Shown in pieces: positions 14,957-38,154 of a stretch of 64,000 nt of DNA. The stretch is from Paracyclopina nana (taxonomy: Eukaryota > Arthropoda > Copepoda > Cyclopoida > Cyclopettidae), in NCBI GenBank assembly GCA_019096065.1, contig JAGUCH010000010.1:1-64000 (forward strand), given 5' to 3'. Within the stretch, counting starts at the first letter, position 1, and every line of letters begins with the position of its first letter. Below the pieces are notes generated by a model that was not told the origin of the DNA, made no database searches, and worked only from the letters and a program-made list of their open reading frames with translations. The position numbers were made by a program, and so were the translations under genes.

Positions 14957-15884
14957 TGGTGTGCGGCGGTCACACCCTCTGAAGCCTAGGATGGTTGCCA
15001 TCGGCTTCATGGTCGTGATACCGTTCGCAGCCTCCGGGTGCTGGCCGGATGTCTACCCGACTTGGACCCAAAGCCGCAGCCTCGGTGCTCCAACTCCGGC
15101 GAGATACATCACATGGCAAGCTTCAGTGCTGTAGACCTGTGATTGGGCCTCCTACCCACGTCCTCAACGGCCTCAACAGCCTCAGACGAGGGATGCATAA
15201 CTGCCCAGGAAACCTCTATACAAGTTATGGTCGAACAAAGTCAAACAAGGTTGTCTTATTCACTCAGCTTTTAACACCACACAAATTAATGGCAGCAAAT
15301 ACAAAGAAATAAGTACTGCAGTAAATATTCTTGTGGCCATCTTCTTCATGCCCTCAGCACACTTTGGAGAACTTTGGTGGGACAATAGCAGGGCAGAGCT
15401 CACTCAATGGGCCATGTGCACTTGGTCCATGTCTTGTTTCTCTGAAGTCCCCCATCGAACTCCCGAGTCTTCTCCTTCTTCTCCACTCGATGCATCGCAG
15501 CAAGTTCCATCAGCTTCCATCTGCTTCTCTCCGTTATCATGCAGCTGCAGGTCCTCTCTATGTAGCAGCTAGCAACTCCTCCACACAATGGCTAGCAACT
15601 TCTCCACTCAAGGTCAGGTGAATTGCCATAGGTGAGGCTCAACGCATGGTAGTAGCAGCAGCAGCAGCAACAATCAGAGAGTTGGAGGAGATGAAAAGGT
15701 GTTTTTTGAGAAGGGAGGTTTTGTGATTTTGAGATGGTGATGCTTAGCGGTGAATGGGCAACCTTCCGGACTTCTGGCGGCTCCACGGGCTCCACAGTTT
15801 CCACAGGTTCCACTGGAGGGGTCCAATCAAGTCCTATTCTGGTCGTAACGTGCACCAGAGACATGATGTACTTATTGCCCATCA
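14957..15884 (-). repeat. 3' LTR of the retroelement
   Basis: On the minus strand it begins TGATGGGCAATAAG at 15884 and ends CGCACACCA at 14957. It matches 37229-38154 with about eight substitutions and five small indels, several of the indels in short homopolymers. It contains a short AGC microsatellite near 15650. Small open frames in it are not gene-like. Confidence 0.92.
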
Positions 15885-15905
15885 TTCCCAGGCCCTAACT
15901 TTTTC
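15885..15905 (-). promoter_or_regulatory. Candidate polypurine tract
   Basis: Immediately upstream of the 3' LTR on the minus strand the sequence reads GTTAGGGCCTGGGAA and then the TG of the LTR. It is purine-rich but interrupted by pyrimidines, so it is an imperfect primer site for plus-strand synthesis; position is the main argument. Confidence 0.4.
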
Positions 15906-15986
15906 AGCTTTTGAAATAGTTTTAAGCTCTAAAAATATAAAAAGGTGTCATTGATCGCTTACATCACATTAAGGTTGATACAGTTA

Positions 15987-17868
15987 TTATACTAACGTCG
16001 CGCCTCCCAGGCCCCTCATTCGCACAGTAAGGCGCTGATTTTGGTCAGCATCTTTCTTGCGATCTCCTCTATTATGGCGAAGCCGTGGGCGGGACGTATT
16101 AGCTATCACATAGCCTCCAGCATCATAACGTCGGCTGCATACTCGCCGCCTTTTCCAAATCACTTTGCCCATACACGTAAAGCCCAGTGCTGCAGACAAT
16201 AGGCTCACCGTCAGGATTATTTCCCAATTATTGAATAAACCTCCAAGTTCATCTTCAGAATTTTGTAAAGAACTTCACCATATCACTTTCCCAAGGAGAG
16301 TCCTCGTATCCAGTACTTTGAGTTCCAAGGGAAACCTTACAATTGCTAAGGATCTGATAGGATCCTGGTTCCAATACCACCGAGTTCTTGAAGTCATTTA
16401 AACAAGTCCTATTAATCATTGCACTTGAGACCAAATTTAAGAACCCTTTATAATTAGCACATCCCACATCAGTGAGCGTGTTAGTTTTAAGTGGCTCTAA
16501 TTCACAGGCGTCAAAGGGTCACCCAGAGCTAGCCCTAAAAGTACTTTAGCACAGTGCTGGACTCCTTCTGTCAAAGTCAAAGTCCTTGTTTTCACACACG
16601 GTTAAATTATGGTCATGAACGAAGCAATCACTATAGATGGGTATTTCCCGAGACACAAACACTAGATCATTTCGGCGGGTCAAATACCTATCATGCAGTA
16701 AGAATCCGTTTTTGCTTCGTGACACAATATGATATGTGACCTCAGGGTAGGGTCCATTTCTTTATACCCAACTATTCCCTGAGTGACAAAGTCTCCACTC
16801 TGCTCAGTGTTCATAAAGGTTCATAAACATTAGTAATGGTGGCCGCATTTCTGTCACTATTATGCGCCCAGAGTTGGTAAGCTGAACCGTGTGCCTGCCT
16901 GCCCAAAATTTCTGGCAAATTGCACAACTGTGTCAGCATATGACAATACTTGCTGCAGATCATTTGGTAATAATCCAGACTTCAAAAATACCTTGCTAAA
17001 ACCTTTCAGTAGTCGAAAGGCCAAAGAAACTTTCGGTGGTACTCTCAGTGGAGTGGTATTTGCTATCATGCCATCGGTGAATTTTGTCGATTTACCTGAT
17101 TCTGCTAGGGCCATCACGGCGTTGTAGGCCTTTTCAAGGAAGCTTTTCCTCCCAGACAATTCAGATTTGACAAAGTCCTTATGGGTGATGACAAAGTCAT
17201 TTTGAACACATATTGTTGCCTTCCCATCACTGTGTGGTGCATGGGCTTTAACTGACGTCATGGTCCTCGGCCCTTGTCCCACAGTGAAATACCCCGTGAT
17301 ACACGGGTAACCTGCAATTATCTCATCATCCGGTTTTCTCCTTACCCCACTTGAGGAAATGTGGTTTTCCCATCCAAGGACATAGGTACCTCATTGATGA
17401 TCCGAAACTTTACACATAAAGTTACCGTAGTAGCAAGAGGGCTTTCCTTTGCCGTATAACGTAATAGTTCTAGAAAAACGTCCATGTCTTCATAAGTTTT
17501 AGGGGCAAATGGTACAAACCCTTGACGTTTGGAACAAGCTTTGTCGATGGTGTTAGGGGTACTCTCTTCTCCAACTGCCAACATATTCCCAATATGGACC
17601 AAGTCCTCCTTGTCCTTAACTTCTTTTACCACGGTGTCAATATTATTCAGGACGCCAATTGTTGATTGCAAAAGGCCACTGTAATCCTTCGTATCTAACA
17701 CCATAGCCTTTTTCACCATTCTAGGATGATGGACCACTCTAACTGGAACTAGGGCATGTCCGGAATGGCAAAGTGCCTCATCCAGTACGAACTGAGTATT
17801 TGGGTAGTTGGACAGGCCCCAAGTGCCAGATCCCAAAGGGTGAGTATGAAGGCCAATTCAAACGACAT
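15987..17868 (-). pseudogene. Envelope-like membrane glycoprotein of the retroelement, frame-broken
   Basis: This is the last minus-strand coding block, ending 103 bp before the 3' LTR, the usual place of env in retroviruses and errantivirus-like elements. The ATG at 17868 opens a short hydrophobic N-terminus that looks like a signal peptide. Open pieces follow at 17836-17342, 17282-16860, 16467-16255 and 16208-15987. Several N-glycosylation sequons and scattered cysteines are visible. Near the C-terminus a membrane segment (about 16230-16160) is followed by a run of arginines and a basic tail of about 55 residues. At least four frame changes or stops interrupt it, one at a GGGG run near 17340. 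I could not assign it to a known viral glycoprotein family; the call rests on position and architecture. Confidence 0.6.
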
Positions 17869-18002
17869 CTTACCAGCACAAACTCTGATCAGAAACTATT
17901 TGGGCCCCAAGACCGCTAACTTTCCTTATAAACCCAGACAAGTATGGGCACGCCACCTCACTATGTCTAGACATTCTTTGCTTTTTCCATTGGTTTTTAT
18001 TA

Positions 18003-18807
18003 TCATAGCATGTCGACATGTATGGTAAAAGTTAAGAGTATTGGCCCACAACCAAGTATTTTATCAATATGTACAATTCGATTCTGAAGGGTAATTTCAT
18101 TTTTAGAACTGCCCGACAAATCCATTAATCGCCTCAGTGAATACCTTGATGTCGCTGGGGTCATTTCCTCCATTTTAGCCTGGAGGAGATAGTTCACACG
18201 CTCCTTATTCTTATCGACTTTGGAGCGCTTAGCGTGCAAAATGTCTGGTCCATTCGTTCCTGCGCCAAAGGGCGCCCGCGCGCTATCCATCGGCGTACAG
18301 TCTAGGTCCTCGCCTTGGTTTTTGTTGCCAAGACTTCTCCACAAACGCGGCTAGTTTTTGGGGCCTGGCCCCGACTGTGTACCTCACGCATTGCGGATAT
18401 GTTCCAATGGCTTGATCGACAAACTGGGCTACCATGGTAGGCAGGAGTGCGGTCATATCGATCTTCACGTCCAATTTTCGTGGTGCTTGAGCCACGCCAT
18501 TGTTAAGGCAGGACGGCGGTCCCACATACAGTTGCACGTAAGGCGACGTCAAATCATGGAACATCCGCGGATCCCAAAATGATGAGTCCAATGTTGGCAT
18601 GATCTGAATGCAGCCTCGCTTGGTATAATGTTTGGGGCCTACTCCAGGGGGTTGAGCTCCACCTTTCCCAGGGATCCAATGCACATAATACCCAACAGCT
18701 GTTGGGCTCTGGACGGCAGACCAACTCCTGACAGTGGCCAACTTATGGACATTCTCGTGATATTCCAGCTTGTCAGGCAAGTTGTAGACTGGTAGATTGT
18801 CTAGCAT
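18003..18807 (-). CDS. Retroelement ORF B, unknown function
   Basis: Two open pieces, 18807-18283 and 18344-18003, overlap in different frames; a single frameshift near 18300-18340 would make one product of about 265 residues. The ATG at 18807 overlaps the stop of ORF A within the seven bases ATGCTAG, an arrangement that allows termination-reinitiation. The first part is rich in Pro, Gly, Tyr and Trp, and the second is charged and helical. No signal peptide or membrane segment is evident and I do not recognise the family. Lying between ORF A and env, it could be an accessory or structural protein, which is inference. Confidence 0.5.
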
Positions 18808-19400
18808 CGGAAGTTTAACAAGAAGATCGGAATCTCCCCTCCTTTACTCACTGGCTCGATAATCAATTCAATGCAGTCAAAGTTTTTCACCTTCAATGGC
18901 CTACGAGGCTCGGTCCGTTCATAGGGTTCTCCATTTATCCTAATCGTCAGGTCAAAAGGCACCTCCTTTCCAACAGTCATGACCTCTTTCGTAGCTATCT
19001 TCAACAGGCTTGCATCATAATGCTGCTGTATAGTAGCTCTGGTCCGGCTCGCCTCCCTCGCATAGGCCTGTAGACCCTCCATGTGGGGAGGCCTGATCAA
19101 ATCCTCAAATGGCAATGGGTACCCCAAACTGGAGGATACCCTTTCCAATGGGACCTCGAGGGGTTCCTCTTGGTCCTGGTGCCTAGTCGTCTGATTCTGG
19201 GCTTGGTTCTCAATATTGACAGCAGGCATGTTGCGATCCATAACTGGCTCATCATCCTTTAGGAGCTCACTAACCTCTTGTTCGTTGAACTCTCCAGTCT
19301 TATCAGTCTCCATCATAGAGACCAATGCAGATTCTCCTTCCATGGATTCGGTGATCAGAGACATCCTTAGATTATCGAGGCTATTCAAGCTATCGCTCAT
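18801..19400 (-). CDS. Retroelement ORF A, unknown function
   Basis: An intact 199-codon ORF. Residues 1-90 are acidic and Ser/Gln-rich and look disordered. The second half is more ordered, with a beta-rich stretch including TIRINGEPYERT and a hydrophobic C-terminus. A good TATA box (TATAAAAGG on the minus strand, 19443-19435) lies about 35 bp upstream of the ATG, suggesting that a separate transcript starts here rather than at the LTR. The ORF overlaps ORF B by seven bases. I do not recognise a domain. Confidence 0.55.
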   Translation of the reverse strand: MSDSLNSLDNLRMSLITESMEGESALVSMMETDKTGEFNEQEVSELLKDDEPVMDRNMPAVNIENQAQNQTTRHQDQEEPLEVPLERVSSSLGYPLPFEDLIRPPHMEGLQAYAREASRTRATIQQHYDASLLKIATKEVMTVGKEVPFDLTIRINGEPYERTEPRRPLKVKNFDCIELIIEPVSKGGEIPIFLLNFRC

Positions 19401-19760
19401 TTCCAGACTGTTGCTGTAAGGCCGTAACCTGCCCTTTTATACACATCTTTACAGGTATGCCCCACACTCTCGGGCATTTCAATGCGTGGGGTGTCCCTTT
19501 TCAAAAACCCAAGGTCATTTTTGTCTAGGTAAAAAGAACAAGTTAACAGGACTTATACCACTTCCTTATAAGATGGCGCGTGCGCGCACGCTCATCGTCG
19601 AGTTGCACGGACATTTTTGACTTCCTAGGTCGAGAAGCGTAGCGAGGGTGCAACAGGCAGTTGCAACTCTCAGCTTTCACTTAATGTTGATCATTCTCCC
19701 ATCGGACTTCGTCCAAGCTGGTCACTTTTCTAGAGATATTCCAATCCCAATCAACTCGCG
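19401..19760. promoter_or_regulatory. Divergent promoter-like region inside the retroelement
   Basis: The 360-bp gap separates ORF A (minus) from the spliced plus-strand gene. The minus-strand TATAAAAGG at 19443-19435 points to ORF A; the plus-strand TATAAGATGGCG at 19567-19578 points to the 19761 gene. A perfect 14-bp palindrome GCGTGCGCGCACGC lies at 19578-19591. A pyrimidine-rich stretch ending in TTTTCTAG near 19733 could instead be a splice acceptor for the plus gene. Function is inferred from motifs and layout. Confidence 0.5.
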
Positions 19761-20728
19761 ATGGTCATTTTAGCCTGGGTTTCTCTAACTCCAGAGGGCA
19801 GCTCTACAGAGGCTCCCACTGAGGTTCCAATCCAGCCATCAATGGTGGATCCTGCGCTAGTGGATTCTCAAACCACGGGCCCAGTAAGTCCTACTGTTGC
19901 TATTCCTGAGAGTGGCATTTCTGAAGCCGGGGGTGGACCTGGATTTGGCCCAGCTCCTGTCGGCCCCTTTGAAGTGGAGGTGTTTGACCCCCGAGATTTA
20001 ATGCCAGCGGTACCAAATGGTTATCGTCCCATTGCCCCTCAGAGGGACTGGATCGATGAGGTTTTCAATTACCACCGATACGGTGTAATGGGATGGATCG
20101 GTCTTGGAGCGTCCATTGGGATGGCTTTGGTAAGTTCAACCTTATAACTAGTTTTGCAACTATGGCCAAACTTTTATTTACCACCTTCTTTCTTACAGAT
20201 TTTGCTTGGCATGTTGGTGTACTTCTGCGTGTGGACGTCACGATGGTGCCGAAGGTTCGTGGCCACGTTTCGAGCTATCCGTACGGAATCAGCGGCTGCC
20301 AGTGGGGAAGCCATGCAAATGCTTCCAACAAAGGCCCCATCAGAGCATGCAGCGGTATTTCACTGCTGTACCCCAGAGGTCCGAGCTTTGCCACCAGCCC
20401 CGATTATGCGTGACCCTGATGTCCATTCGCTCCAAATGGCAATGGCTGCCATGGACCCCTATGGAACACTACGCCGGAATCCCAGCATCATGTCCGGGCT
20501 GGCCCACATCTATGACGTCCCTAATCCCAAGGGCTGGGTAAGGACCTATCAATTTATGAACTGTAAACAGGTTGCTCATGTACTCTTTTTCATGCACCTT
20601 TTCAGGTACCTGTTACTGAAGGGTGCGGGCCGCGGACTTTGAAGAGGCGATCTCGCCAGGCTCGAGCCGAGATAACCGTCGCTTGGATTCGCAGCGGAGT
20701 CCATCCCGGACAAGGACGAAATCACTGA
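19761..20728 (+). CDS. Antisense spliced single-pass membrane protein gene within the retroelement
   Basis: Three exons are proposed: 19761-20129, 20199-20537 and 20606-20728, about 276 residues. Both introns (69 and 68 bp) have canonical ends, GTAAGT...TTACAG and GTAAGG...TTTCAG, and all joins are phase 0. Residues 10-90 are rich in Pro, Glu, Ser, Thr and Gly. A membrane segment (GWIGLGASIGMAL then ILLGMLVYFCVW) spans the first junction and is followed by basic residues, then a tail with tyrosine-containing motifs. The third exon is the weakest: another frame stays open to about 20811 and looks acidic, so a small indel may hide the true end. I do not recognise the protein. Introns antisense to the element mean that it would be transcribed from its own promoter. 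Confidence 0.6.
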
Positions 20729-21410
20729 GGCTGAACCTCTCTCCATCGCAGATGAGGACCAGGATTCAGCTGGATCAAAGGCTTCCCAAGGCGTCAGCAG
20801 CGATGCCAACTAAGGATCGCCACGAACTTGAGGCGAAGATCGCTCTCTTTTACGCACGTTTTTAAGCGCGTTTTCTGCAACTTTAGCACTTTGTCCTTCT
20901 TATCGCGTGCGAATTCTCACTTTATAACTTGCATTTCCCGCAGTCTTCGCGGACTTTTCCACTTTTTCGAGATCTCGCAAACTTTTCGAGGCCTCGCAGA
21001 CTTGCAGACTTCAAAGCCGGCTTTTGGCAATTGCACTCGTCTTGTTTTTATTTTGATCTCAAAGCTTCCAATATACTCGAGTATATACTATAGTACTTGT
21101 ATTCTATATATATGTAATAAAGAATTCGAATTCAAGTGGGGTAGCAGGTATTAGCGAAGCCGTTACCTTCATCTAACAGCGCTCCCAGACTTCACGTAGA
21201 GGCGCGTAATAAAAAGAGGCTTTTTCACGTAAAATTTGGCCGATTTCAGACCGGATTTTTCTGGTAGCGTGCCTTGTTTACTAAAAAGTCCAAAACATGG
21301 CGGGCTTCCTTCACGGCTTGTTCGTAAGTTTTTATTTCGATTAAAATCCGTTGAATCCTTTCGTAAAACTGTATCTTTTTCATTGGGAATGTAGAATCCT
21401 TCTACCACAA
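20729..21410 (+). other. 3' region of the antisense gene with polyadenylation signal
   Basis: No sustained coding frame. The plus strand has AATAAA at 21117-21122 in an AT-rich setting, a plausible end for the transcript of the 19761 gene. A short series of GACTTTTCGAG-like words occurs at 20950-21010. Confidence 0.35.
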
Positions 21411-22020
21411 CAGTGGCCCCCGCCACTGAGGCTCCCGTAGGGGCGCCCCCACAGCCGAGTCCGCGGCGGGGGTGGCCCCAGCCACCTGCGGCCCCGCCCG
21501 CAGCCCCTTTGGGCCATCAGGAGGCGTGCCCTCCCTGCCCCGTTCAGGGCTTCGTAAGTGCATTATTCGTTATCTATTTGGTCAAAGCTCGACTTTTTTC
21601 TCGTATTACAGGCCGAAGAGATCCTCTAGGGCGTGGCCCTGAACGTGGCAGGGGCGGCCACCTATTATTTGGTGGCCCTGCCCGCCCTCGCCTGGGTCCA
21701 CCGGGCTAGGCCCAGGGCCCTGTATCGGCTCGTCAGCCGGGTGTGGGACGAGCCCACCGACCTGCCCAGGGTCTCGGCCTGGGTCCTCCACCTGTTTGTG
21801 GGGGAGGAGGACCCCCTCGAAGGAGTCGTCTAGTAAGTCTAACTTATTCACTTAAGTTATCACAGCTTCACTATATTCATTCTTTTCTATTGCAGAAATC
21901 GTCTCGTTATCGGTAGGCCACCGCACCGGCCAGGGCTGGCCCCAACGTGGCCCAAGGCCAGCCCGCCCCCACCAGCCAGGAGGCCTCCCTTTCGGGACAA
22001 TAAAGTCCACGTTCTTTGTA
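21411..22020 (+). other. GC-rich segment with intron-like signals
   Basis: Composition changes sharply to GC-rich Pro/Ala/Gly-type sequence. Two intron-like intervals are visible on plus: 21557-21611 (GTAAGT...TTACAG) and 21835-21895 (GTAAGT...TTGCAG), followed by AATAAA near 22000. Open pieces exist at 21413-21556 and 21633-21833 but they do not join in frame with those splice sites, so I cannot give a coding model. It may be a second small antisense gene with an indel, or a non-coding transcript. Confidence 0.35.
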
Positions 22021-24403
22021 CTTTTGTGTCTACTGTGTTTACCGCAACTCATTTCGCGTTTACCTCAGCAGATAGCTCAGCCTTATGAAGCTCAGCACCT
22101 TTCTAGTCAAGTTCAGCAGTTCATTATCATAGCCAAGCACATTTCGAGTCCAATTTTTTACATTTCATGGCCAAAAGGACCGTAGACCATATCTCAGGTG
22201 TCAAGAATTGCATTTTAATTGCATAATTAATCATTAGCGAATCATTAGCGGCCCAAATCCACAGATTCGGGCCTGTAAATAAGCTAGCATTCCAGCTCGA
22301 CCTTGACGGCCTTGACACTGCAAACGATGCTTCAATGTTCAAGAAAAGCGTTCACTATAGCCCTGCATTCCAGCTCGGGCTTGATGCAGCACCATATTTG
22401 AGTGTCTGCGATTACTACCGGCCAAGCGTTGGTGCTTATGGGCTACCAATGCCAATTTGGCATCCTTTTTTCCTTGGGCATTCCGGCTCGGCCTTGAGTG
22501 CGGCGAAGGAAACGTAGTCCCTACAGGACTGGAAAACCGGCCGTATGTCATTGCACATAGCAAAAGCAAGCTCAAGCACTAGGCAATGGCACAATATTCT
22601 TTTCCATATCAGGCTAGAAGACGTGTATTTTTCATTTTCTCATATGTCAGTCTACAATGTGTGCTGACCTAGCTTGTTTTGCTAGTGCTGTGTTTAGCGT
22701 AAATTGAATTCTCCACCAAAAGAGAGGGGATTCATGTGGCGACTGCAAGATAGCCACATTTCAGCACTTCTTTTATTTAACAATATGCCTAATCTTTGTG
22801 CACTTTGAACCTTTTCTTCTGTTAGTCCATCTGGCGATCATTAGCGGTATCATTATAACATTAGTCATTTTCATTCTCTTGACTTTTATGCAACGTTTTA
22901 TTTTATTCCTTGTACCCGCATAATAAATCCCGGAATTTGAGTCACCACTCGAGCCAAGTATGGCCATTTTCGAGTTTAGTTAGGTTCAAAAACCTTCCCA
23001 GGTGAATTGTAGGTGCACCGGCGGTTCCAATCTTCATTGTTCGTTTTAGCCTTGGGCAAAACGTTTTTGGTTCGTGGTTAGGCGCATGGTGGCGCCACCA
23101 TTCTACATCTCCAAGCGAAGCCGCTCAAACTGGATTTTTCTAGTGTGGGAGCGTCTCTGGATTTTTGTTCCATAACAACTTTTTGCCCCCCTTGGAGTCG
23201 GGTATCTGTTCGACAAAAGCTGGCTCAGCGTCTTTGCGCAATGCAACTCACATTTCAGTCTATCTTGCTCAAATGTTTTTGTCTAGCCATTTTAAACAGA
23301 CTCATAGATTATGTTTTATCTGCTATTACTCACTTGCATTGCGATTATTGCTTTGCAGTCCAGCTCGGTCTTGATGCGTGCATCAAGTTCGAAGTGTTCA
23401 TAACCGAAATTAATTTAAAAGATTGAGGTTGTCAGCACCGATCTTTTCAGCTAATTTCGGTTAGCACTAATAATAATATATGAAGCAGATTTTGCGACAT
23501 TTATGTGCTAGTGTTCAGGTTTATAGTTTTTGTAGCCATTTGCCATTTCCAGTTTTTTCTAGAAATTTTGTTTACAATACTTTCTCAGAGCACGAGGGCG
23601 CTCAAATGTTGTGAAATTTTTGGGGCGCAGGCTGCATTTCCTGCGGCTACGTATATATACTCCCCCCTCCACAATTTTCTGCATTTTGTGGGAACTGCAG
23701 TGAGCAGTCACACAAAATTCAGGTAAGTATGTTTTCGAATCTTTTACTATAAAAGATTTATCAGCTAGGCTAATTTTATTCAATTTTATTTGAAATATGG
23801 CGCCCATGGGCACCATACATGATATCACAAACCTAAATCGTGCCACCGTAAGGAAGGAAGGTCGGCACACACTAAATTTTATTTTTATTTAGAATTACGA
23901 TTTCCAAAACAAGTTTAGTTGTCACACATAGACTGTTGTGGCAATCGAACTTAAAATGGTATTTTATGGGGAAACACTTGTTCAACCCCCAAAATACCCC
24001 AGTTGTATCCAAAGCTGAAGAATTCACCAGCATATAGGATTTTCGTTGTCTTTAGTGGCCACAAGGGAGCGGCCCATTCCAATAGTGAGTGGGTCCCTAC
24101 ATTTTGTTGAGGCATGAAGACCATAGTTTGGGCTGATTATTCGCCCAGGCACAAAGCTGTACTTAGTATTTCAAGATCCCTTCTTAGGGAGATGAATCCC
24201 ATTTTTGTACAGATTTCCATGTTCCATCCTACTCAAAGTCCGGAGGCGTCACGCCTAGACCTGCGTTATGCAACCAGGTCATGGTCGAGACACTCTGATA
24301 TTATAGGCACAGTAGTCGTTGCAACAGAGTTTTTGTTTTATGGCATATACTACTGTGGTATCGTTTCCATGCCAGAACATGTGTGATTTATAATCGTCCT
24401 TTT
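22021..24403. other. Non-coding stretch of the retroelement with a dispersed 20-bp motif
   Basis: No convincing genes. A motif near CATTCCAGCTCGGCCTTGA recurs at about 22289, 22366, 22488 and 23355 with small changes. Otherwise AT-rich and without recognisable domains. Confidence 0.4.
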
Positions 24404-24718
24404 TTATCGATGCCCAATCCTCATTTCAGAGGTTGTGCATTTTCCTAATTTCTTCTGGAAGTTTTCAATATCGTTCCAAGATTTTATATAGTAATGCGGC
24501 CAACACAAGCCCTCATGCGTATTGTGAGGTTTATTGTGTCCCACTTGCACAGTGCCTAGTGCCAACTTTTGCTGTACCAAGGTACGAATGTCCCAGTAGC
24601 TATCAACCCACGCGAGGCATGGAGTGGATAGCGGTTCCATTTGGACATAGCTCAGTGGAGCTTTAACCATAGTTTTCAACACATAGCTATTCAGATGGGG
24701 CATTACGCCCATCTGCAA
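24404..24718 (-). CDS. Short unrecognised ORF of the retroelement
   Basis: A 104-codon minus-strand ORF with a composition unlike random sequence (many Trp, His, Tyr and Cys) but no family I know. It lies between the integrase tail and the antisense gene. It may be one exon or a fragment of a larger lost protein. Confidence 0.25.
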   Translation of the reverse strand: MQMGVMPHLNSYVLKTMVKAPLSYVQMEPLSTPCLAWVDSYWDIRTLVQQKLALGTVQVGHNKPHNTHEGLCWPHYYIKSWNDIENFQKKLGKCTTSEMRIGHR

Positions 24719-25651
24719 CTTCCCTCTTGCATGGCGTGTTTATAGTACTTTACTTTATATAACTTATATAATAGTTAACTTTATTCAGGCCAATCGGCCT
24801 ATCGTCTATTGTAAGCTTGGCCTCCTACTATAGTAGTAAGGGGCAAGCACACATAAATACCGGTCAAATTTTGATTTGCATCGGTATTTATCAGGAAACA
24901 GGACAAAATTAGTTGTCCCATCAATATTGTAAAAATAACCTACGCAAACTTCATTTATTTTGTCAAAGCAAGCGAGGTTTGGTTTGTTGTTGGATTGAAC
25001 AATCCCTGGAGGAAGTCCAAATCCAGTGCCTTGTGGCTTCCATCATTTTTATACATACTTCTAGAACCGCTAACGAACTGCAGAGAGTATGTTTCGTTAG
25101 TTGTTTTCTTGCTGTCAATGTACTGTTCAGCAACTTATCACCTTTATGCATATTGTACCTTACTGGCGGGCATGCGAAGAGACATTGCCCGTTCGTATCC
25201 ATTTCTATGATCTTTTTGGCAAGTGGCCAAATTCAGGTCCGCTCTCGACATTTTGCATTAACTTACTTTTGGGTGCGCTTGATTGGTAAAACGGTGCGCC
25301 CATATTGGACTGACAAAGTAAAGGTAGTGACCCCATAAAATATGGGCACTAAGATTACCGTCATCACGTCCTTTCTTACGAATCTCTATTTAAACTTCTT
25401 AAAAGCTAGCTTGTATAGGTCATCATAGGTGAGACGCAGCCGCTTCATTTCATTTATGTTGCTATCATCTTGGTGATCCATGCCAGTCGCTTTAAGAAAC
25501 TGAATATAATCAGGGACTGCAGCCATGTTTTTATTCAGTTTCCAATTAGGAACTACCTCTTCTAGTAACTCTCTCTCTTTTTGGTCTGGCCTTTGGTTCG
25601 TATTTGTAAACCTAACACGGGCGAATTCCTTGTCCTCCCGATCTAAAGGAG
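24719..25651. other. Retroelement interior, nothing recognised
   Basis: AT-rich DNA between the short ORF and the integrase-tail pieces. Only short overlapping open frames without domain likeness are seen. Confidence 0.3.
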
Positions 25652-26422: not shown

Positions 26423-26452
26423 TATAGTATACCGAACTTGAGGCTCCCTCCT

Positions 26453-27895: not shown

Positions 27896-27950
27896 TCAGC
27901 TTTATGAATTTTGTCCTCGCTTTCACTAAGTATTTCAAACACATCCCGTC

Positions 27951-28681
27951 CTAAGTGATAGAACGGCATTTTGTCGAAAAATAATGAGAAAGGGGTGGGG
28001 TGATCTTCACCCCTTTATCATCAGTATATGCCAAATAAGTAAGAGGGCGGTTATTTATTGCGTAAATAGAAGTCTTAAACACATCGCATACCTTCATATT
28101 GTATGAGTTCGAGTTTAAGACTAATGCACTCACTTATTATTCGTATAGCATTTTCAGCGTAAGCGTTCGAATGCTGTATGGCGATAAAGTTCGGTAATGA
28201 CATAACTCCTTAATTTTATAACGATCAACAAGGCGTTGGAGGGCCTTATTAGTCGTTAGCTGGGCACCATTATCTGCAAGTAATGTTTTTGGCACCCCAA
28301 ACAAAAGAAATTACTTCTTCCATAGCATTACGCTACCTGCTTATATTTAGCATCCAATAGTGGTTTAGCAATTATCATCTTAGAATAAACATCGACAAAT
28401 ACTAACAGGTCTTTTGCGGAAGACCCTTTGACTAAAGTGTCATCGAACTTGGCCAAATCAATCATTACCAATTCCCATGGCTGAGTCGGGATGCGGAAAC
28501 GCCCCTTCCCAACAAACCTAGTATTAGCTTGGCGGTATAAAGCACAATGCATGCACGCACCAATAATAATACGACTGATTCTGGCTGAGTAAGTTGAATA
28601 CATAGATTGAGTAAAAAGGGTATTGGTCTTTTTACTCCCCAAATGGTTATGTAACAGATGAATACATGCCATAAGGTACAC
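27951..28681 (-). pseudogene. Integrase zinc-binding and catalytic core region, frame-broken
   Basis: Piece 28681-28328 has an H-x-LLHNHLG...C-x2-C pattern (zinc-binding HHCC) and then PWELVMIDLAKFDD...LLVFVDVYSKMIIAKPL, which contains the first catalytic Asp of an rve core. Piece 28133-27951 carries INNRPLTYL and ITPPLSHYF, the typical end of the core. The 28134-28327 stretch between them is frame-disturbed, so I could not place the remaining catalytic residues with certainty. Confidence 0.7.
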
Positions 28682-28986
28682 AGTTAGGCATACTCATATA
28701 CACTTTTGTATTAGTAGCAACACTGAAGGGTAACTTTACATTCTTGCGTATAACCAACAAGGCACCATCAAGAACTTCGGTATTTTACCGCAACATCTAA
28801 TGGTACTTTCTCAGGAGGCGAAAGCATAATTAAATTTATTATCTTTTGTGTTTTTCTTCACAATTTTGTTGCAACTTAATGAGTAGGTTGCGTGTAATTC
28901 CTGGTAAATGTGGCGATATTCGCCGTTTAACAGTTATTGTATGTACTGTTTAGTTACTTTCTATATGATTTACTGGTGAGTCAAAA

Positions 28987-29235
28987 TCAGCTTCCCCATG
29001 AAACAGAATGAGATAGTTTTGAAAGTATCTCGTCCTCAAGAAATTCATCATCACCATGTTTTGCTTGAAGTAAGGTTGACGTGTCGTCGTGCACAAATGG
29101 CGGCTTCGTGCCGATCATGTCAACCCATTTGTCATTTAGGCAATGCAACCTTTTCTGGAGTAGAGTCTTACTCATAGTTCCAGAATTCACAAGTGTATCA
29201 TACACATGTGTAAGTAATTCCTGTGTCGTTAGCAC
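28987..29235 (-). CDS. Pol linker fragment between RNase H and integrase
   Basis: An 82-codon piece in the region connecting RNase H to integrase; no specific domain is recognised. It is presumably part of the pol polyprotein in its original frame. Confidence 0.3.
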   Translation of the reverse strand: MLTTQELLTHVYDTLVNSGTMSKTLLQKRLHCLNDKWVDMIGTKPPFVHDDTSTLLQAKHGDDEFLEDEILSKLSHSVSWGS

Positions 29236-29368
29236 CTTATCTTTGATTGCATCGGGCAGAGGGTACTTATTTGCATAAATATCCTTCGTAATCTGCCCCG
29301 CAATAGAGTAGGGCGCATAAAATACAGTTTCACCTTCTGGCGTTTGATGGTACTTATTTAATAATACA

Positions 29369-29924
29369 TCAACTACTTCTACCTCTGTGCGAGGTACAGC
29401 TCTCCAATTTCCATGCTACAGGCAGGGAATAAATACGAGCTGCTAGTCTATGAGTGAAAGCATCTTTACCAGTAAGCGAACTAGCCAGCACGCTGGCTGT
29501 TGATAGACAATCCGTAACTATGACTAGTCGCTCATAGGCGAATAGTATGCTTTTAAAATGGTTTATCATTGTTAAAACTCCTAATGCTTCACGCTGAAAC
29601 GAGTGGTCACGAGAGGCAAACTGATAAAGGAAAGCGTGCGCTGTGTGCACCAACACACACAGCTTTACCATCCTCATTCACCTCCATTAATAAAGCTAAG
29701 GTGCTAATTACCCCAGAATCAACCACTAAATAACCTTCTTTAAAACGTGGCAATGCCAGTGACATACCTGTTTTAATCTCGTCTATTACTTTATAGAAAC
29801 ATTTTTCTTGGAAAGCAGTGAAGGTGAACTTTCCTGTTTTCCCTTGCGCTGTTTGTAATACATCTAGCAGTGGAGCTGTGTATGTAGCCATATTAGGACA
29901 GTACTGGCTTAACCAGTTTGTCAT
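29369..29924 (-). pseudogene. Ty3/Gypsy RNase H, frame-broken
   Basis: Piece 29924-29607 begins NWLSQYCPNMATYTAPL, the Gypsy RT-thumb/tether pattern, and reaches LVVDSGVISTLALL, the first catalytic Asp region, and GAHSARF. Piece 29677-29369 continues with REALGVLTMINHF and IVTDCLSTASVL, the second acidic pair. A frame change near 29610-29680 separates them. Order and motifs are those of Ty3/Gypsy RNase H. Confidence 0.75.
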
Positions 29925-29990
29925 TCCAATAAACTTTTGCAGCTGTTTCTTGGTTGTGGGAATAGGAAATCATCAAATGCAGACCTGAAT

Positions 29991-30914
29991 TTATCGGGCA
30001 TTCGCATAGTCATAATCCCATTTTCGTCCAATAGATATTAGGTGCCCTAAGACTGTAGCTTCTTTAACTCCTAATTGTGTCTTTTTAATTTGTAATAGGG
30101 CATTTAAGTCCTTGAGGCTTTGAAACAACTTCCTCAGATCACCTAAATGTCGTATGTAATCATCCAATGTAGCAGGCCTAGGCTTGCCAGGGTTCTTACA
30201 GGCCACAACCAAATCGTCTACATATACACACATGTAAAGGGCAATATCTCAGGGTTAAGGGCCTGTTGGAGGAGCTCTGCGAACATTCTCGGAGCAATGG
30301 CGATCCCTTGTAGGCATGACTTACTTTTCAGAAAGACTGATCTATATATACTGCGAGGGGACGTTACTGCAAAGCAGCACATATCAGCACTATCAGAGTC
30401 CACAGGTAAGTTATCGTATCCGGATGTTACATCGAAAGATGACATTAAACACGAATTAGATAACATCCCTAGCAAGGTAAGGGATAGGTGGCACTATGTG
30501 CTCCGAAGTCGTAAATATCAGATTTTTATTAAAAGATGTTAAGTCAACTAGTAGCCGAGGCTTGCGTTGCTTCATAGGCAGCTTTTCATCATTTGGCCTT
30601 GAAGTCAAGAAACAAGGGCAAGCCGAGTACCTATTAAGTGACTTATCCACAATTTCAATTAATCCAGATGACAGCATTAATGCTATTTTACGGTCAACCT
30701 GCGTAGTTTCATACTCCGACATGTTAAATACTTTTGGCACTAATGGTTTATCATCCTTTAACTGGAACTTCATGGGTTCGACATTCCATAGCCTATATGA
30801 TCTAGGATCCTCCGAGAATATAGTCTTATATTCTATTAAGAGGTCCCTAAAGTCTTCTCTGACCTCATCCGGAATGTGTTCTAGATCCATGTTCAGGATC
30901 GTTTCTGGTTTCAA
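29991..30914 (-). pseudogene. Ty3/Gypsy reverse transcriptase, frame-broken
   Basis: Three overlapping pieces (30914-30456, 30475-30218, 30233-29991) carry in order the RT fingers with PRLLVDLTSFNKNLI, the SSFDVTSGYDNLPV block with the first catalytic Asp, and the active-site YVDD in CVYVDDLVVACKN, followed by VLGHLIS. This is the Ty3/Gypsy layout. Catalytic residues look intact; only the frames are offset by small indels at the joins. Confidence 0.85.
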
Positions 30915-30940
30915 TGGAAATGTATAACCTGCTACTCCAT

Positions 30941-32269
30941 TTAAAACACGGAGGGGTCAAATTCACTTGGAAATTTCAAAAGGAGATTATAAACCTCATC
31001 ATATAGTTTTTGGTTATTTCTCTCATCTTTAGAAAGCTCCAGGCTAGCTGATACGAGGTCTAGTTCAGAAGGACTTTTTAGAACTGTTTGTCTGACACTG
31101 GTATCCACAATAGGACCTTCGTAAATAGTAGTGAAGCTCTTAAGTGGCACTTTGATGCCCATGTTCTTTTGCCAAGCAAGGCTTGCACGAGCAACCATGT
31201 GGTTCAAAGTACAAATGGTATAAATTTACCAAATTTTGTCTTTATATCCTCTTTGGTAAGGTCATCAGGGTACATTTGTAACCCAGATAACACTAGCAAT
31301 GCAGCGGTGGATTGCCATACAAAGTGGGTCACCTACATGCACATCGCCATCCATAAGTGTTCTGATCCACACGTCGTCGGCCACATTTTGGTACCGTAAT
31401 TGACCAATTATTATGTACATAAGCAGTGGTTAAGTAGCCAATATTCTCAGCATGTTCGCTAGGGACATGGAATATTAACTCAACATTGTTGGACAACTTA
31501 AACATGATACCATGAGCTCCAAGAACATTTTAGTTCAAAATACTTATCTAGTTCATTTCTTTGATAAGCAAGGGGTAATTCTCATACTCATGTATCATCA
31601 TAGTTATTATGACCCTATCCATCCCATTGAGGTAGGATTCAATAGGACACAAGAGCAATGGTCATGCATGGTGGGCAAATATACTTATATTTTAGCCATA
31701 CTACTTTGAGTTTATCCACCATCATATTCATCTTTATTACAATGCGCTTTTTTGTTCGCCAGACAAAAGTTTATGCCCTGGGACAATAACAGCCCACGGT
31801 AATTCATCCCCATTTTTCTCGTTTCATAAATTTGCTAATTATCACATCAGTTATCTCTTCGTAACCATCACTTTGGTTAGCTGAGATAAATACGTAATTT
31901 CCTTTTCTACTAATCAAGGGCTTGTGGCTTCCCCTTAATGGCTCATAGGCATTGAAAAAATGCATATCAGTAAAGAAAGACCATTTATATCCGTAAACTG
32001 CACAATTACGTGCGAATCCAAATAATTGCAGTAACATGACTCCATTTCATGCTCCAGGGCCTTTAAACTAATGTTAGCCACATGGGCTGCAACCGTACTC
32101 TTAAATTTCTGTTTACTTGACAATCCTGGCTGCGCCCAATCACTGCATGTGCATTTAAGTAGATGGGATCCTCAGTATTATTCCCAATATTTACTGGGAA
32201 AGTACCTTTACGAGTGACTGCAGTAAGTGCCCCCTCAGAGGTCACTCCGCGGTACTCGTCACTAGGCAT
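30941..32269 (-). pseudogene. Pol region between protease and reverse transcriptase
   Basis: Open pieces at 32269-32063, 32123-31935, 32037-31804 and 31207-30941 are in changing frames. Their content is consistent with the connector upstream of Gypsy RT, but no domain is identifiable. 31210-31800 has no sustained minus-strand frame. Confidence 0.35.
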
Positions 32270-32283
32270 AAAAGTTTAAGTAC

Positions 32284-33282
32284 TTATCCACCAATCCGGA
32301 ATAAACATTTCTCTGGTGATAGAGTACGACCAAGGTCGTCATCTTCGTCAGAGTCAGAATCTATTTGGATGTCATTACTGATGACAGGTAAATCATGAGG
32401 TAAACTAGCCATGGTGGTCACTTCTTCTCCAGGGAGTAGAGTGATCCCTTCATTTATTGCAACTGGGTAGAAAGCCTCTTTTGATAGTAAGAGTGGAATT
32501 TTCTTATGTTTGGACTTTCCAGGGAAATCCATAAAGTGCTTTCCATCTTTACTAGTCATCCGGACATTATTGTCCACTAATAACGAGTTTCCTATCATTA
32601 ATAGTGTATCGCAATCAGATACAAGGAAAATAGCCTGTCTGATTAAAACACGATTCCCAAATGCAACTTGAATAGAGACAGCTTCATTCCCTGGGAATTC
32701 TTCCCCATTAAAGTTCTTAATTACATAATTAGTTTCGACCCGAGGTAGAGTGTAACCAATTTTGTCTTCGATCAGTTTTACAAGAGTGCGTGATATTATC
32801 TGCACCATTGCTCCACTGTCAAATAAAGCATGCAAACGTATTTTTCCAGTTATCTCCACTGGTATAAAATACCTTTCACAAACATTATGTAGTTTTAATG
32901 AGTATATACTCAGCACGTCATCTTCAAGTTCCGGATTCGGTAAAGGTTCAAAATGTGTTACTGGCTCTGCTTCATTAGCATTTACTGAGGCCAGATGTGT
33001 AACGATACCATCATTACTACAAGTTTTTTGCTCATCACTCGTGCTACCTTTTACAAAGTAGTACCATAAAGCTATTATTGCTCCACTACAGATTACTGTA
33101 ATTGGCCAATAATCCCAACCAAATAAGCAATATTGACATATTGTTATTGCAAACAGTATTATGCTAATCTCAATTACAGTCATAGTATGCTGATGGACAA
33201 ACCGACTTTTTCTACCCCTTATTGCAAGGACCAGAGCCTTTTTGTCCTCACTTCCACGAGTCATAATTTCGGCATTTTTCAC
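32284..33282 (-). CDS. Retroviral-type aspartic protease ORF with N-terminal membrane hairpin
   Basis: An intact 332-codon frame. The protease signature LHALFDSGAMVQIISRTLV is at about residues 152-170, and LLMIGNSLLV about 80 residues later fits the second conserved block of retropepsins. Upstream, around residues 35-80, two hydrophobic segments (VIEISIILFAITICQY and ITVICSGAIIALWYYFV) are separated by a short turn, which looks like a membrane hairpin. That is not a usual part of Gypsy proteases. The tail is acidic (DSDSDEDDD). Confidence 0.75.
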   Translation of the reverse strand: MKNAEIMTRGSEDKKALVLAIRGRKSRFVHQHTMTVIEISIILFAITICQYCLFGWDYWPITVICSGAIIALWYYFVKGSTSDEQKTCSNDGIVTHLASVNANEAEPVTHFEPLPNPELEDDVLSIYSLKLHNVCERYFIPVEITGKIRLHALFDSGAMVQIISRTLVKLIEDKIGYTLPRVETNYVIKNFNGEEFPGNEAVSIQVAFGNRVLIRQAIFLVSDCDTLLMIGNSLLVDNNVRMTSKDGKHFMDFPGKSKHKKIPLLLSKEAFYPVAINEGITLLPGEEVTTMASLPHDLPVISNDIQIDSDSDEDDDLGRTLSPEKCLFRIGG

Positions 33283-33405
33283 AGATTGCTCCTTTAAATA
33301 ATCAAAGTAAGCTCGTCCTACTTCTTTGTTACATTCTCCTCATAAATGAAGGCAAGATGTAACTATCTTTATCATTCTTATTGGGAGTTTTTGTACTTGG
33401 TCCCA

Positions 33406-35970
33406 TTATTGTTTACGAGCAGGTCGTGTCTTCCAACACTGTTCTCCCCTAAACTCAAGGTGCAATCCTTTACACAACGGGCACAATGTGCCATCGTTTC
33501 TAATTGAGGTCAAATTCGTGTTCGGGTAATTCGTACACTGTGTAGCGTAATGCAATTGGTTGCAGAACAAGCACCCATTAGTCTGAAGAGGGTTTCCTTC
33601 AGGCAACTTAGATGTATCTATGTTAAAAGTTTTTCCCAGCCTATTTATTTTCTCGGATGGTGATTCAGCTTTCATCATAGCTACTTCAACAGCTTGCCTA
33701 CTCAATTCAAAATTTGCTCTGAGCCAACTCGCTTTGTAGCTCATTTATTATTTTAGCACTTCGTTGACTACGGCCAGAGGCTGCCGACATAGTGCTAGCA
33801 CTGTCTAACACCTCTTCTTCAGTAGCTTCAACCATAGCAATTCTAGGTTTGGCACGCATATTGGGTACCATTGGCAGCCTCTCCTCTTTATGAGCCCTAT
33901 CCAGGTCCCTTGGCACATAAGTACCTAGGTCACTACCAATTAGGTTCATCATGATATTGTAGGCGTGCAAACTCCCTAGCAGGTATATTCGCTCTCAGCA
34001 GATAGTCGTTGTATTTGTTTACTAACGACTGGTAATTCTGAAGGCCAATGACGTCCTAAGTGCAAAACCATCAGAGATGGCTTCAGAGACTGCATGAGCA
34101 TCTCCGCCATCTCCAATGGTTGTGCTTATGTATCTTCATTCGTAGTCGAAGAATTGCCTTAAGTGTGGCAGTGAAGCACTCAGTAGGCTTCCGGATCATC
34201 TCCTGAATGAGGAAATATGGATCCTCTTTACGCACAAACTGCGTGTAGTTAAAGATATCTTGCCATAGCAATTCCATACCATCTTTTCCTTCTCCAGCCA
34301 TCCCCTTAAAATACTCACTAGTATTCTGGGATGAAGCCTCACACATGGCTGTTAACAAAGCTGCATGAGACCAATGCTGTCTGCCAGCCTCGTTCGCCAT
34401 ATAGTCCAGAAAATTTATTATATTCTCAGCAGTTAATGAAGAACTATGTAAATCAAACTTTTTAGTATATTTGTGCCTAATCTCCTTCATTGACTGTGAG
34501 CTTGCATACTTAACATGGCCATTCGTAGGTGCAGCGATGTAACCTCTCATGGTAGTCGGATCATAAATGCTCCTAGAAGTGTCAGCTGATACTCCAGCAG
34601 CCACACTTATTTCAGGGGTCTTCAAGTAGCCCTCTGCCAATATCTGCTTTTGGAGAGAAGTAAACTGCGTCCCTCGTGCTAAGTACACTAGAGAGATTCT
34701 GAATCTCAATCAATTTATTTCCTGAGGATAAGTTTGGGTCAACCATCTGAAGGATTACTCGTCTAGCTGATTCCACATCCTTAATCTCGTCGGTGTTAAT
34801 TAACTTCAGCCTCTCTGAAATCGGAGCAGACTCATCGTAGATGACGTCAGTTTCGACACCATTCTTTCCTTCGTCGCAGCATCTACTATGCTTAAGGTTC
34901 TTTTCTAAATTCTTACTGAAGATAGACTCTACTTTTGCCCCAACCATGTGCTTAGCCGTGATTTGTGCAGAGGCAATGATTTTATTTGCCGTGCTTGCAT
35001 CATGCATTTTCGTGTAGTAAGCTTTTACCGTGTTCAATTCCTGAATATTCAAATGGCCTCCTGACAACATCTTTTGTACCATCCTATGTACAACTTCCAT
35101 TGGAGGAAGCGTGACAGAATTAGTCAAGTTGTGCAAATCACGAGGATTCATTTTAGTCGAGGTTAGGACTGACTTATTTTGGCCATTCAGATCAACACCT
35201 GTAGTGAACTCATGATGGTTAGTCCCAGGTGGACTTGCTATCGAACATATCTGGAACAGCATTACTCGTCTCATTGTTTGGGAAATGTACACTCTGGCCT
35301 GAAGTTTTCTGTGGCTTCAGGTTAAGCGGCTCATTTAGGAAATAATCGATTTGTAGGCCATAAAGCCTCGCTACAATGGAAAATCCATCTCCAAATGCCC
35401 GTATCTTTAGCCAATTCCTGGATATCAATGTCGCAACCATTTCATGCGTCCCTGACATTGCGTAGGTCATGGAGCTTCCATCAACTTCTTGGATACGCTG
35501 CAGATCTTTCTTTTCCTCAATACGAGTTAGGAACTCATCCAGACCAAAACAAATGCATAATAAAGCACAGGTCGTGCTTGTCAATGAATTAGGGTCAAGT
35601 GCATCAATATATTTAACCACATTTACAACCTGGCCTACTGGCTCTTTAAGAGTCATAGTCCTAATGATTGCCGTAATATGATCATCCAACGGTCTAATTG
35701 GCTCCTAGGAACAATTACTATCCGAGTCCTATCCCAGACAGCTGCTATTTGTGCTGGGGTTACCGTAACAAACTCTAGTGCTTCAGGGTAAGCAACGTGT
35801 GGCAAAAATCTTTGCAAGACAGTCCTGCTGGTCCCATTTGGGTGGCATTGGGATAAGTACCCTTGAAAAGTGTCCTCACTAATCCCAAGATGTTGCAACA
35901 ATCGATCCTTTACTTTCGTAACTTCCTCAGCCAGAGTAGGTCCAGTGATCCTAGAATCCTGATTAGCCAT
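33406..35970 (-). pseudogene. Gag with zinc knuckle, frame-broken
   Basis: The first ATG after the leader is at 35970. Open pieces at 35970-35653, 35689-35219, 35292-34612, 34709-34083, 33970-33707 and 33744-33406 overlap end to end in changing frames, as expected for one protein of about 850 residues with several small indels. Most of it is helical, capsid-like in character. The last piece has CLFCNQLHYATQC (C-x2-C-x3-H-x4-C) and then CPLCKGLHLEF...C, a zinc-knuckle pair before a basic C-terminus (RPARKQ). Confidence 0.7.
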
Positions 35971-35999
35971 TCTTATCTTGTAAAAAGCGTGACGGAGTC

Positions 36000-37206
36000 A
36001 CACGAAGTATTTCTTATCTCTTAGAGGTGCAACGGAGTCACACGCAATATTCTGGTCTTAGTACACTACTGTGTGTACTAAATTCGGTAATACCGAATTA
36101 AAAGCTATACGCTGTTCAAAGCACAGGGAAGCTTGTCCTAATTACTACGCCGCGTCAAGTGACACAGAGAAAAAGGTTGCAGTTGCTAAGCTCGTTTATT
36201 TATTTTTTGTCTAGGCTATGAGCGGCCAAGACAAAACACACACACAAACGCACGCACAAATACACACACTCACTTATTACAATATAAAAGATGGAGTAAA
36301 ATTTGGCACTACTGGTGCCAACAGGTGTATGGATGGTAATTTCTTCTAAGTCTCTGAAACAAAGGTGCATCAACTTTTACGCAAAAAGGTATGCCACTTA
36401 AGCCAACCAGTGTCGACTCAGTGAATGAAAAAATAAAAGTTTGCCCACTCCTCCTCGAGTTGCGGGCCGGCCAACCTTCCCTGTGCCCTCGGCAACTTGT
36501 CCAAGGTTAGCCAGTTTTTTGGGCCCCAAACACGCATTTTCCTTTGTGGCTCCCACTCTGGCTCCACGCGTGGCCTATTTGGGGTTCATTGACTCGCAAG
36601 TCATAGATTACATCATCTTCTTCCATCTGTGTGGCCAAACCCACGGACGAGACCCACTAGTGTCGCAACACTCTTGCGCTCACTCGCCCCATTATGGATA
36701 GGCAACAGAGGCTCAGGTCGCAACCTGCACCTTGGCTGGCTTTCCGGCTGCCTTTGCCCCCATACTCCAAGCTCTGCCATGGCGGAGCCTGCACGCATGC
36801 ATTCACCTCCGGGAAAGACAGTGTCATTGTTACTTTGTGTAGGCCCATCATCATAACAATGGTCCATAGGAAGACATCATCAACGGGCTGGTGGTACGTC
36901 ACGGCCTGTACCTTCTTGCACTCCCCCGCGCGCCAGTTCCAACCCGCCAACGGCATCAATGCGCAATTTGGGTCTAAGGGAATCTAAAGCCTACGCACCA
37001 CATAGGCCCAAATGCCATCGGAGTGACCCCCATCGGCTCGTCAGCCTTCGGGATTTTGCTTTTGTACTGTAGTAGACACACCCTGATCGCAATCAGCATG
37101 CGGCCCAACCTGCGCCGCAGAGCAGGAATCCTGATCCACACCAAGACATTTTCCGGGACTTCATGGGGTTTTGGTTATCAAACCTTTAGGAGAGAGAGTG
37201 GCCTTC
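36000..37206 (-). other. 5' leader of the retroelement
   Basis: About 1.2 kb between the primer-binding site and gag. It has no convincing gene. 36230-36270 is CA-rich, and a 7-bp stem with a 5-nt loop (TTGGCAC...GTGCCAA) lies at 36303-36321. Packaging or dimerisation signals would be expected in this region, but none can be named. Confidence 0.4.
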
Positions 37207-37225
37207 AATCCCTCCGGGGCCTCCA
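37207..37225 (-). other. Primer-binding site
   Basis: On the minus strand, three bases after the CA end of the 5' LTR, the sequence reads TGGAGGCCCCGGAGGGATT. Its complement has the form of a tRNA 3' end: T-stem, acceptor strand, discriminator T and CCA. Eukaryotic tRNA-Gln has U at the discriminator position, so tRNA-Gln is a candidate primer, but the isotype is only suggested. Confidence 0.8.
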
Positions 37226-37228
37226 AAA

Positions 37229-38154
37229 TGGTGTGCGACGGTCACACCCTCTGAAGCCTAGGATGGTTAGCATCGGCTTCATGGTCGCGGTACCGTTCGC
37301 AGCCTCCGGGTGCTGGCCGGATGTCTACCCGCCTTGGACCCAAAGCCGCAGCCTCGGTGCTCCAACTCCGGCGAGATACATCACATGGCAAGCTTCAGTG
37401 CTGTAGACCTGTGATTGGGCCTCCTACCCACGTCCTCAACGGCCTCAACAGCCTCAGACGAGGATGCATAACTGCCCAGGAAACCTCTATACAAGTTATG
37501 GTCGAACAAAGTCAAACAAGGTTGTCTTATTCACTCAGCTTTTAACACCACACAAATTAATGGCAGCAAATACAAAGAAATAAGTACTGCAGTAAATATT
37601 CTTGTGGCCATCTTCTTCATGCCTCAGCACACTTTGGAGAACTTTGGTGGGACAATAGCAGGGCAGAGCTCACTCAATGGGCCATGTGCACTTGGTCCAT
37701 GTCTTGTTTCTCTGAAGTCCCCCATCGAACTCCCCGAGTCTTCTCCTTCTTCTCCACTCGATGCATCGCAGCAAGTTCCATCAGCTTCCATCTGCTTCTC
37801 TCCGTTATCATGCAGCTGCAGGTCCTCTCTATGTAGCAGCTAGCAACTCCTCCACACAATGGCTAGCAACTTCTCCACTCAAGGTCAGGTGAATTGCCAT
37901 AGGTAAGGCTCAACGCATAGGTAGTAGCAGCAGCAGCAGCAACAATCAGAGAGTTGGAGGAGATGAAAAGGTGTTTTTTGAGAAGGGAGGTTTTGTGATT
38001 TTGAGATGGTGATGTAGCGGTGAATGGGCAACCTTCCGGACTTCTGGCGGCTCCACGGGCTCCACGGTTTCCACAGGTTCCACTGGAGGGGTCCAATCAA
38101 GTCCTATTCTGGTCGTAACGTGCACCAGAGACATGATGTACTTATTGCCCATCA
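37229..38154 (-). repeat. 5' LTR of the retroelement
   Basis: Minus-strand start TGATGGGCAATAAG at 38154 and end CGCACACCA at 37229. About 99% identical to 14957-15884. By chance its first ~100 bases stay open in the Gal3ST frame, so the interrupted gene would add LTR-encoded residues after LAAF. Confidence 0.92.

Follow-up and report, generated by a model that had tools for sequence, protein, structure and literature searches.

What kind of retroelement spans 23 kb in the copepod Paracyclopina nana, and do the unusual genes inside it belong to it? The question is raised by a 64,000-nt stretch of DNA (the window, positions 1 to 64,000 of contig JAGUCH010000010.1, assembly GCA_019096065.1). 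The original prediction had described a large retrovirus-like long terminal repeat (LTR) element there that carries an env-like gene and, on the opposite strand, a gene with introns, and the other copies of the element in the genome support that description. We consider it quite probable that the locus holds a recently active, env-bearing giant Ty3/Gypsy-type (metavirus-like) animal retroelement with two predicted spliced antisense membrane-protein genes, named here as1 and as2.

The element and its copies

The element is bounded by two direct repeats, differing by 8 mismatches and 6 gap columns, which are its LTRs (Table 1). They end in TG...CA, and a 4-bp duplication, CAAA, flanks them. The 19-nt primer-binding site, TGGAGGCCCCGGAGGGATT, is complementary to the 3' end, CCA included, of tRNA-Thr(AGT), whose gene lies at C2:6687982-6688055. 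It is located 3 nt inside the inner edge of the right LTR, so the element lies on the minus strand and the right repeat is the 5' LTR. The LTRs, target duplication and primer-binding site claimed beforehand were all borne out. From right to left the order is 5' LTR, gag, pol, spacer, as2 and as1 (antisense), ORF458 (an open reading frame, ORF), env and 3' LTR. The block of extra DNA said to separate integrase from the 3' LTR is real, and its size is corrected from about 10 kb to about 9.5 kb, since the Pol frame ends near 25386.

A genome search with the LTR gave 125 candidates, of which 40 were scored: 30 of these form 15 pairs spaced 23.1-23.6 kb (the window's own pair among them), 4 further pairs are spaced 29-46 kb, and 2 LTRs are unpaired. 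Fourteen 10-kb pieces of other copies, 8 from the cargo and 6 from pol, align to the window at 92.8-98.7%, L020 in two runs and the remaining 13 in one. Over their 10 kb, all 8 cargo pieces follow the window collinearly (94.9-98.7%). The LTR pairs are identical over 925-926 bp in 5/5 copies tested, each with a 4-bp duplication: ACGT, TAAA, TTAA, GAAG, and CAAA at the copy on contig C6, which is the window's own site. On these comparisons the family, called A here, is one that moved recently as a whole unit of ~23 kb. A 16-base part of the primer site occurs 53 times in the genome; 20 occurrences adjoin an LTR row, 29 are near a gag row, one is the tRNA gene and three are without assignment.

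Two predicted spliced antisense genes

The as1 gene has three exons and encodes 304 aa in one A copy (L011), the join of exons 1 and 2 creating its single predicted membrane span. The as2 gene has a 9-codon exon 1, a Thr/Ala/Pro-rich exon 2, an exon 3 with an in-frame TAG 15 bases in (at 21627) at a tandem acceptor (21612/21630), and a 3' exon with a polyadenylation signal at 21999. A single oppositely transcribed intron-containing gene had been expected; such a gene is present, but there are two, with 3 and 4 exons. The GC-rich island listed as a separate feature (about 21.3-22.0 kb) also exists and is resolved as the GC-rich exons of as2. Structured RNA was considered for this island and rejected: Rfam gave three matches in the element, each far under its gathering score, and the island reads as exons.

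The starts, donors and acceptors of both genes, and the as2 TAG, are identical in 8/8 A copies, in the 65% relative B and in the window, and the as1 stop agrees across the A copies and the window. In subfamily C the exon plan of both genes can be read from the sequence, and subfamily E again shows the intron inside the as1 span and the TAG of as2. The ratio of nonsynonymous to synonymous substitution (dN/dS) within A (28 pairs) is 0.15 for as1 and 0.19 for as2, next to 0.32 for env and 0.25 for ORF458. Between A and B it is 0.16-0.19 for as1, 0.18-0.26 for as2 and 0.07 for ORF458; for env it is not computable because the synonymous distance is saturated. Read from the sequences, both the coding constraint and the splice-site conservation of as1 and as2 are evident.

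All 82 candidates for as2 exon 3 in the genome were scored, and 79 of the rows are without internal stop, at identities down to 44%. Within 13.5 kb of an env row lie 68 of them (65 at 3.5-7.5 kb), and 7 are near an E LTR; 74 of these 75 are on the opposite strand. Five of the other 7 are inside elements by LTR or gag rows, one is without assignment and one is at chance level (E 0.18).

Subfamilies and divergence

Subfamily C has LTRs of about 709 bp, with 10 pairs 24.6-24.8 kb apart, one at 23.8 and one at 37.2 kb. Subfamily E comprises 7 copies with LTR starts 22.0-22.3 kb apart, and the relatives B and D have few copies each. The reverse transcriptase-integrase (RT-IN) part of C is 77-82% identical to A in four stretches, while env is at 45%, so env, ORF458 and as1 diverge faster than the RT-IN core. 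The A and C proteins are about 25% identical in as1 and, along the full length, 52% identical in as2. In E, ORF458 is 24% and as2 39% identical to A, and the as1/as2 genes are kept despite an env only 29% identical.

Among A copies, the segment that holds as1 and as2 (L009-L016, offsets 4400-7200) is 1.8-6.4% divergent, against 0.2-1.3% for env and ORF458. This higher diversity suggests exchange of the segment between lineages.

Gag and Pol

For gag (53 of 133 candidates scored), 34/54 rows span residues 1-862 without a stop. Two Cys-His knuckles are seen by eye at the C-terminal end of the protein, and a search of solved structures (PDB) with gag gave nothing credible. Open pol frames of 2452-2566 aa lie inside three of the six pol pieces (L019, L020, L021); in the other three pol is split into two or more parts. 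In 6/6 pieces the gag stop and the first pol ATG overlap as TAATG with a pol-frame stop just upstream, which makes stop-and-restart likelier than frameshifting.

The Pfam matches in pol follow the order protease (PR), reverse transcriptase (RT), RNase H (RH) and integrase (IN), with RVT_1 (E 1.2e-12) the sole match over its curated cut-off. Ty3 is the best of 13 PDB matches for the RT/RNase H part (E 9.7e-24). BEL/Pao peptidase, gag or integrase domains gave no Pfam match up to E 1 in pol and gag. By these matches Pol is of a divergent Ty3/Gypsy type. It continues several hundred residues past the integrase match, and a long minus-strand ORF beside integrase (27895-26456), taken earlier for an unknown ORF, turns out to be part of this frame.

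Two hydrophobic segments were called upstream of the protease in Pol (span scan). In subfamily C hydrophobic stretches are retained there, by eye, though the region is 56% identical (L019, L050). Hydrophobic segments ahead of the protease are unusual in an enzyme polyprotein.

Env-like protein and ORF458

The env-like glycoprotein claimed from the window corresponds to a predicted 628-aa protein with one span (552-570), 15 Cys and three glycosylation motifs, two of them ahead of the span; a hydrophobic start is seen by eye. In the genome (70 of 121 candidates scored), 34/72 env rows span residues 1-628 without a stop, the B copy being 65% and the C set about 45% identical. ORF458 starts about 280 bp from as1 in divergent orientation. 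It is 68% identical to A in B, and 46-48% over residues 107-458 in 5/6 C loci; in the sixth C locus the match is split in two parts. ORF458 gave no credible Pfam match in A, C or E, and env and ORF458 no credible match among solved structures (PDB). Searching viral contigs for relatives of env, a pol part and ORF458 found none, and an AlphaFold model of a 186-aa window piece of ORF458 was unusable (mean predicted local distance difference test score, pLDDT, 30).

Proposed life cycle

For the promoters, splicing, TAG switch, envelope function and membrane roles we infer the following model. Sense RNA from the 5' LTR would be primed by tRNA-Thr, reverse transcribed within Gag particles and then integrated. 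Pol would be translated by stop and restart at the overlapping TAATG, and a sense RNA that is spliced or starts internally would supply ORF458 and the envelope-like glycoprotein. Transcription of as1 and as2 would start from antisense promoters, of which one may sit in the 280 bp that separate as1 from the divergent ORF458. In the sense genome the introns of both genes would not be recognisable as introns, which is probably how they outlast the RNA stage. The as1 product would cross the membrane once, its outer part containing Ser, Thr and Pro. For as2, the TAG at the tandem splice acceptor may decide between two products, one short and one longer that includes a hydrophobic stretch. Both proteins potentially have an accessory role, on the surface of the particle or within the membrane of the host cell.

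Weighing the alternatives

Several observations weigh against the interpretation given above. The protease, RNase H and integrase matches are under the Pfam curated cut-offs. The env assignment is made by shape: the span scan did not call the hydrophobic start, env gave no credible Pfam match in A, C or E, and its best PDB profile match, an archaeal RNA polymerase subunit (E 0.0023), was gone with a wider profile. The span scan called a span only in the C form of as2 and none in the A form. B's as1 stop and polyadenylation positions are unaligned with A's; at the first polyadenylation position checked one A copy and B differ, and B differs at the second as well. Splicing, promoters and the TAG reading are deduced from conservation.

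The alternative that survives best, though we regard it as improbable, is that a Gypsy element recently captured at the DNA level a host or viral block (15.9-25.4 kb), partly reversed. Ordinary GT-AG introns and polyadenylation signals as in a host gene, together with GC-rich exons, would fit such an origin of the antisense genes. The block is, however, found in 8/8 A cargo pieces, and among the as2 rows 80/82 are assignable to element copies, one being unplaced and one at chance level. The original prediction had allowed for the capture of a block from another virus or genome; as a recent event this is contradicted by the recurrence of the same genes in subfamilies with env about 65%, 45% and 29% identical, so that any capture would be old.

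We find it still harder to accept that the antisense exons are regulatory or structured RNA resembling spliced frames. As genes, as1 and as2 are known from sequence, and the as2 region is strongly conserved as DNA (76% over 240 bp, A vs C), as such RNA might be; but the spliced frames show dN/dS of 0.15-0.26, the as2 protein is conserved along its whole length between A and C, exon 3 is stop-free in 79/82 rows, and Rfam gave no match above gathering score. A second transposon nested in an ordinary Gypsy element would account for the unusual length and is hardly credible, as the LTR search for full-length copies did not bear it out: the same total length and content recur in many copies with identical LTRs, all eight cargo pieces share the cargo, and the repeat search detected no second pair of ends inside the element.

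Comparison with known elements

Ty3/Gypsy elements (Metaviridae) have the Pol order PR-RT-RH-IN, TG...CA LTRs and target duplications of 4-6 bp. The present element resembles them and the env-bearing errantiviruses in its PR-RT-RH-IN order, its best RT/RNase H match to Ty3 and an env-like gene downstream of pol, and the 4-bp duplication with TG...CA ends was found in 5/5 copies and the window. It differs in its 23-kb length, a Pol of at least 2551 aa with pre-protease hydrophobic segments, ORF458, the two spliced antisense genes and an env without Pfam match. The env of errantiviruses is related to the baculovirus fusion protein; for such a relation of the present env, Pfam and PDB searches gave no credible match.

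Burro of planarians is likewise a giant animal Gypsy-like LTR element with an env-like part. Its env is fused into a single huge polyprotein that also has MATH, BIR and ankyrin domains, while here gag, pol and env are separate frames and no MATH, BIR or ankyrin domains were found; the part of the Burro report used here does not mention antisense genes (PMC6431247). The plant elements Grande, RIRE2 and Retand share with the present element antisense ORFs between pol and the 3' LTR, multi-exon antisense genes not being mentioned in the portions of the sources used (PMC7264820, PMC11963269). As described in those portions, the Retand antisense ORFs are mostly TRP28-bearing, and its sense ORFs there lack membrane regions (PMC11963269, PMC7264820). 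The TRP28 domain (PF04195) gave no match in the as1/as2 exons scanned (all but as1 exon 3 and as2 exon 1), and these exons gave no credible match to any other Pfam family either.

Retroviral antisense genes include the spliced HBZ of human T-cell leukemia virus type 1 (HTLV-1) and ASP, a membrane protein, of human immunodeficiency virus type 1 (HIV-1) (PMC10186651). As far as that source was used, each virus has one antisense gene with a promoter in or near the 3' LTR region, whereas here there are two internal genes with several introns each. Troyka (PMC12440569), and the lokiretroviruses and Odin (PMC9040795), resemble the present element as deep lineages of virus-like LTR elements found in animals. 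The duplications of Troyka are 3 bp long and its ends are CG...CG, unlike the 4-bp duplication and TG...CA ends found here; lokiretroviruses and Odin have a dual RNase H. For a second RNase H, a trait of Retroviridae, lokiretroviruses and Odin, pol gave only RT_RNaseH-type matches, though a diverged second domain could escape the Pfam scan. A search of one literature collection on giant env elements and on spliced antisense genes in Gypsy elements returned no such element, judged by titles and abstract openings.

A broader proposal, to which we give roughly even chances, places these elements in a lineage not described before. Its members would be complex retrovirus-like elements of invertebrates, 22-25 kb long and possibly infectious, and a single genome would hold no fewer than three subfamilies delimited by LTRs (A, C, E) besides the relatives B and D. 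Env, ORF458 and the two multi-exon antisense membrane-protein genes would be a co-inherited cassette, the amber codon at the tandem acceptor a conserved short/long switch, and Pol would carry membrane segments.

The window copy and its surroundings

Table 1. Features of the element in the window (strand and basis or remark where given)
Feature	Position	Strand	Basis or remark
Target site duplication, left (CAAA)	14953-14956		flank comparison
3' LTR, 928 bp	14957-15884	-	repeat pair
Polypurine-tract-like stretch next to 3' LTR	15885-15899	-	similar in A and C copies
Env-like gene region	15990-17868	-	628 aa in intact copies; frame broken in window copy
ORF458 region	18103-19477	-	458 aa in intact copies; frame broken in window copy
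Antisense gene 1 (as1)	19761-20813	+	exons 19761-20129, 20199-20537, 20606-20813
Antisense gene 2 (as2)	21297-22004	+	exons 21297-21323, 21395-21553, 21612 (or 21630)-21832, 3' exon from 21896
Spacer	22005-25385		without long frames in fetched copies; 23-nt motif four times
pol (PR-RT-RH-IN and long C-terminal extension)	25386-33408	-	frame broken in window copy
gag	33399-35970	-	in intact copies 862-aa frame (853 aa counted from first Met); frame broken in window copy
gag/pol TAATG overlap	33399-33414	-	sequence reading
Primer-binding site tRNA-Thr(AGT), 19 nt	37207-37225	-	complementarity to tRNA gene
5' LTR, 926 bp	37229-38154	-	repeat pair
Target site duplication, right (CAAA)	38155-38158		flank comparison

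The broken frames of the window copy are atypical for the family, other copies keeping gag and pol open. Its insertion site is also found at C6:6898049, and over 10 kb the two copies differ by 80 mismatches and by 41 indel events, of which 32 involve a single base. Against C6 at 6.9 Mb, the right flank has 8 mismatches and zero gaps in 1 kb and the left flank 18 mismatches and 12 gap runs, with an identical insertion point. The window copy looks like a poorly polished second haplotype, or it may reflect genuine decay of this allele. Because it is a poor duplicate of the C6 locus, the genes were described from other copies. Introns in pol were rejected as a cause of the broken frames, given the open frames elsewhere and the duplication of the C6 locus. 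Contig C10 duplicates part of C6 (window vs C6:6.90-6.92 Mb) and is probably an unplaced haplotype contig.

The 23-nt spacer motif (22287-23377) occurs four times in the window and in 3/3 A copies checked (L009, L011, L015) and five times in B (L030); no occurrence turned up in the checked pieces of C and E. The element interrupts a minus-strand gene, galactose-3-O-sulfotransferase-like by eye (14723-14956 and 38155-39552), with related stretches at 12148-12579 and 38478-38937. Tandem repeats are very abundant in the window (45-11767, 41656-44449, 45062-46122, 48541-49225 and 60411-63261), and one degenerate array, with a unit of about 19 nt, extends over nearly 12 kb. Wnt exons in the genome mark the host as an animal; a chlorophyll a/b-binding protein search gave no match, and an 18S end motif had no exact match. 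A genome-wide reverse transcriptase search, with 150 of its 658 candidates scored, shows several equal-score sets with long open frames of up to 1742 aa, and further retroelement families seem to be recently active as well.

Significance

Genes that pass through spliced RNA lose their introns, and antisense placement in a retroelement can preserve them. Here two antisense genes are kept across subfamilies with env only 29-65% identical, in recently copied elements of a 92-Mb animal genome. This opens direct tests of antisense expression in retroelements, of splicing control and of the faster divergence of surface genes than of RT-IN. The element extends the short list of retroelements above 20 kb, and its combination of gag, pol and an envelope-like gene with two intron-containing genes on the opposite strand may mark an undescribed complex retrovirus-like lineage.

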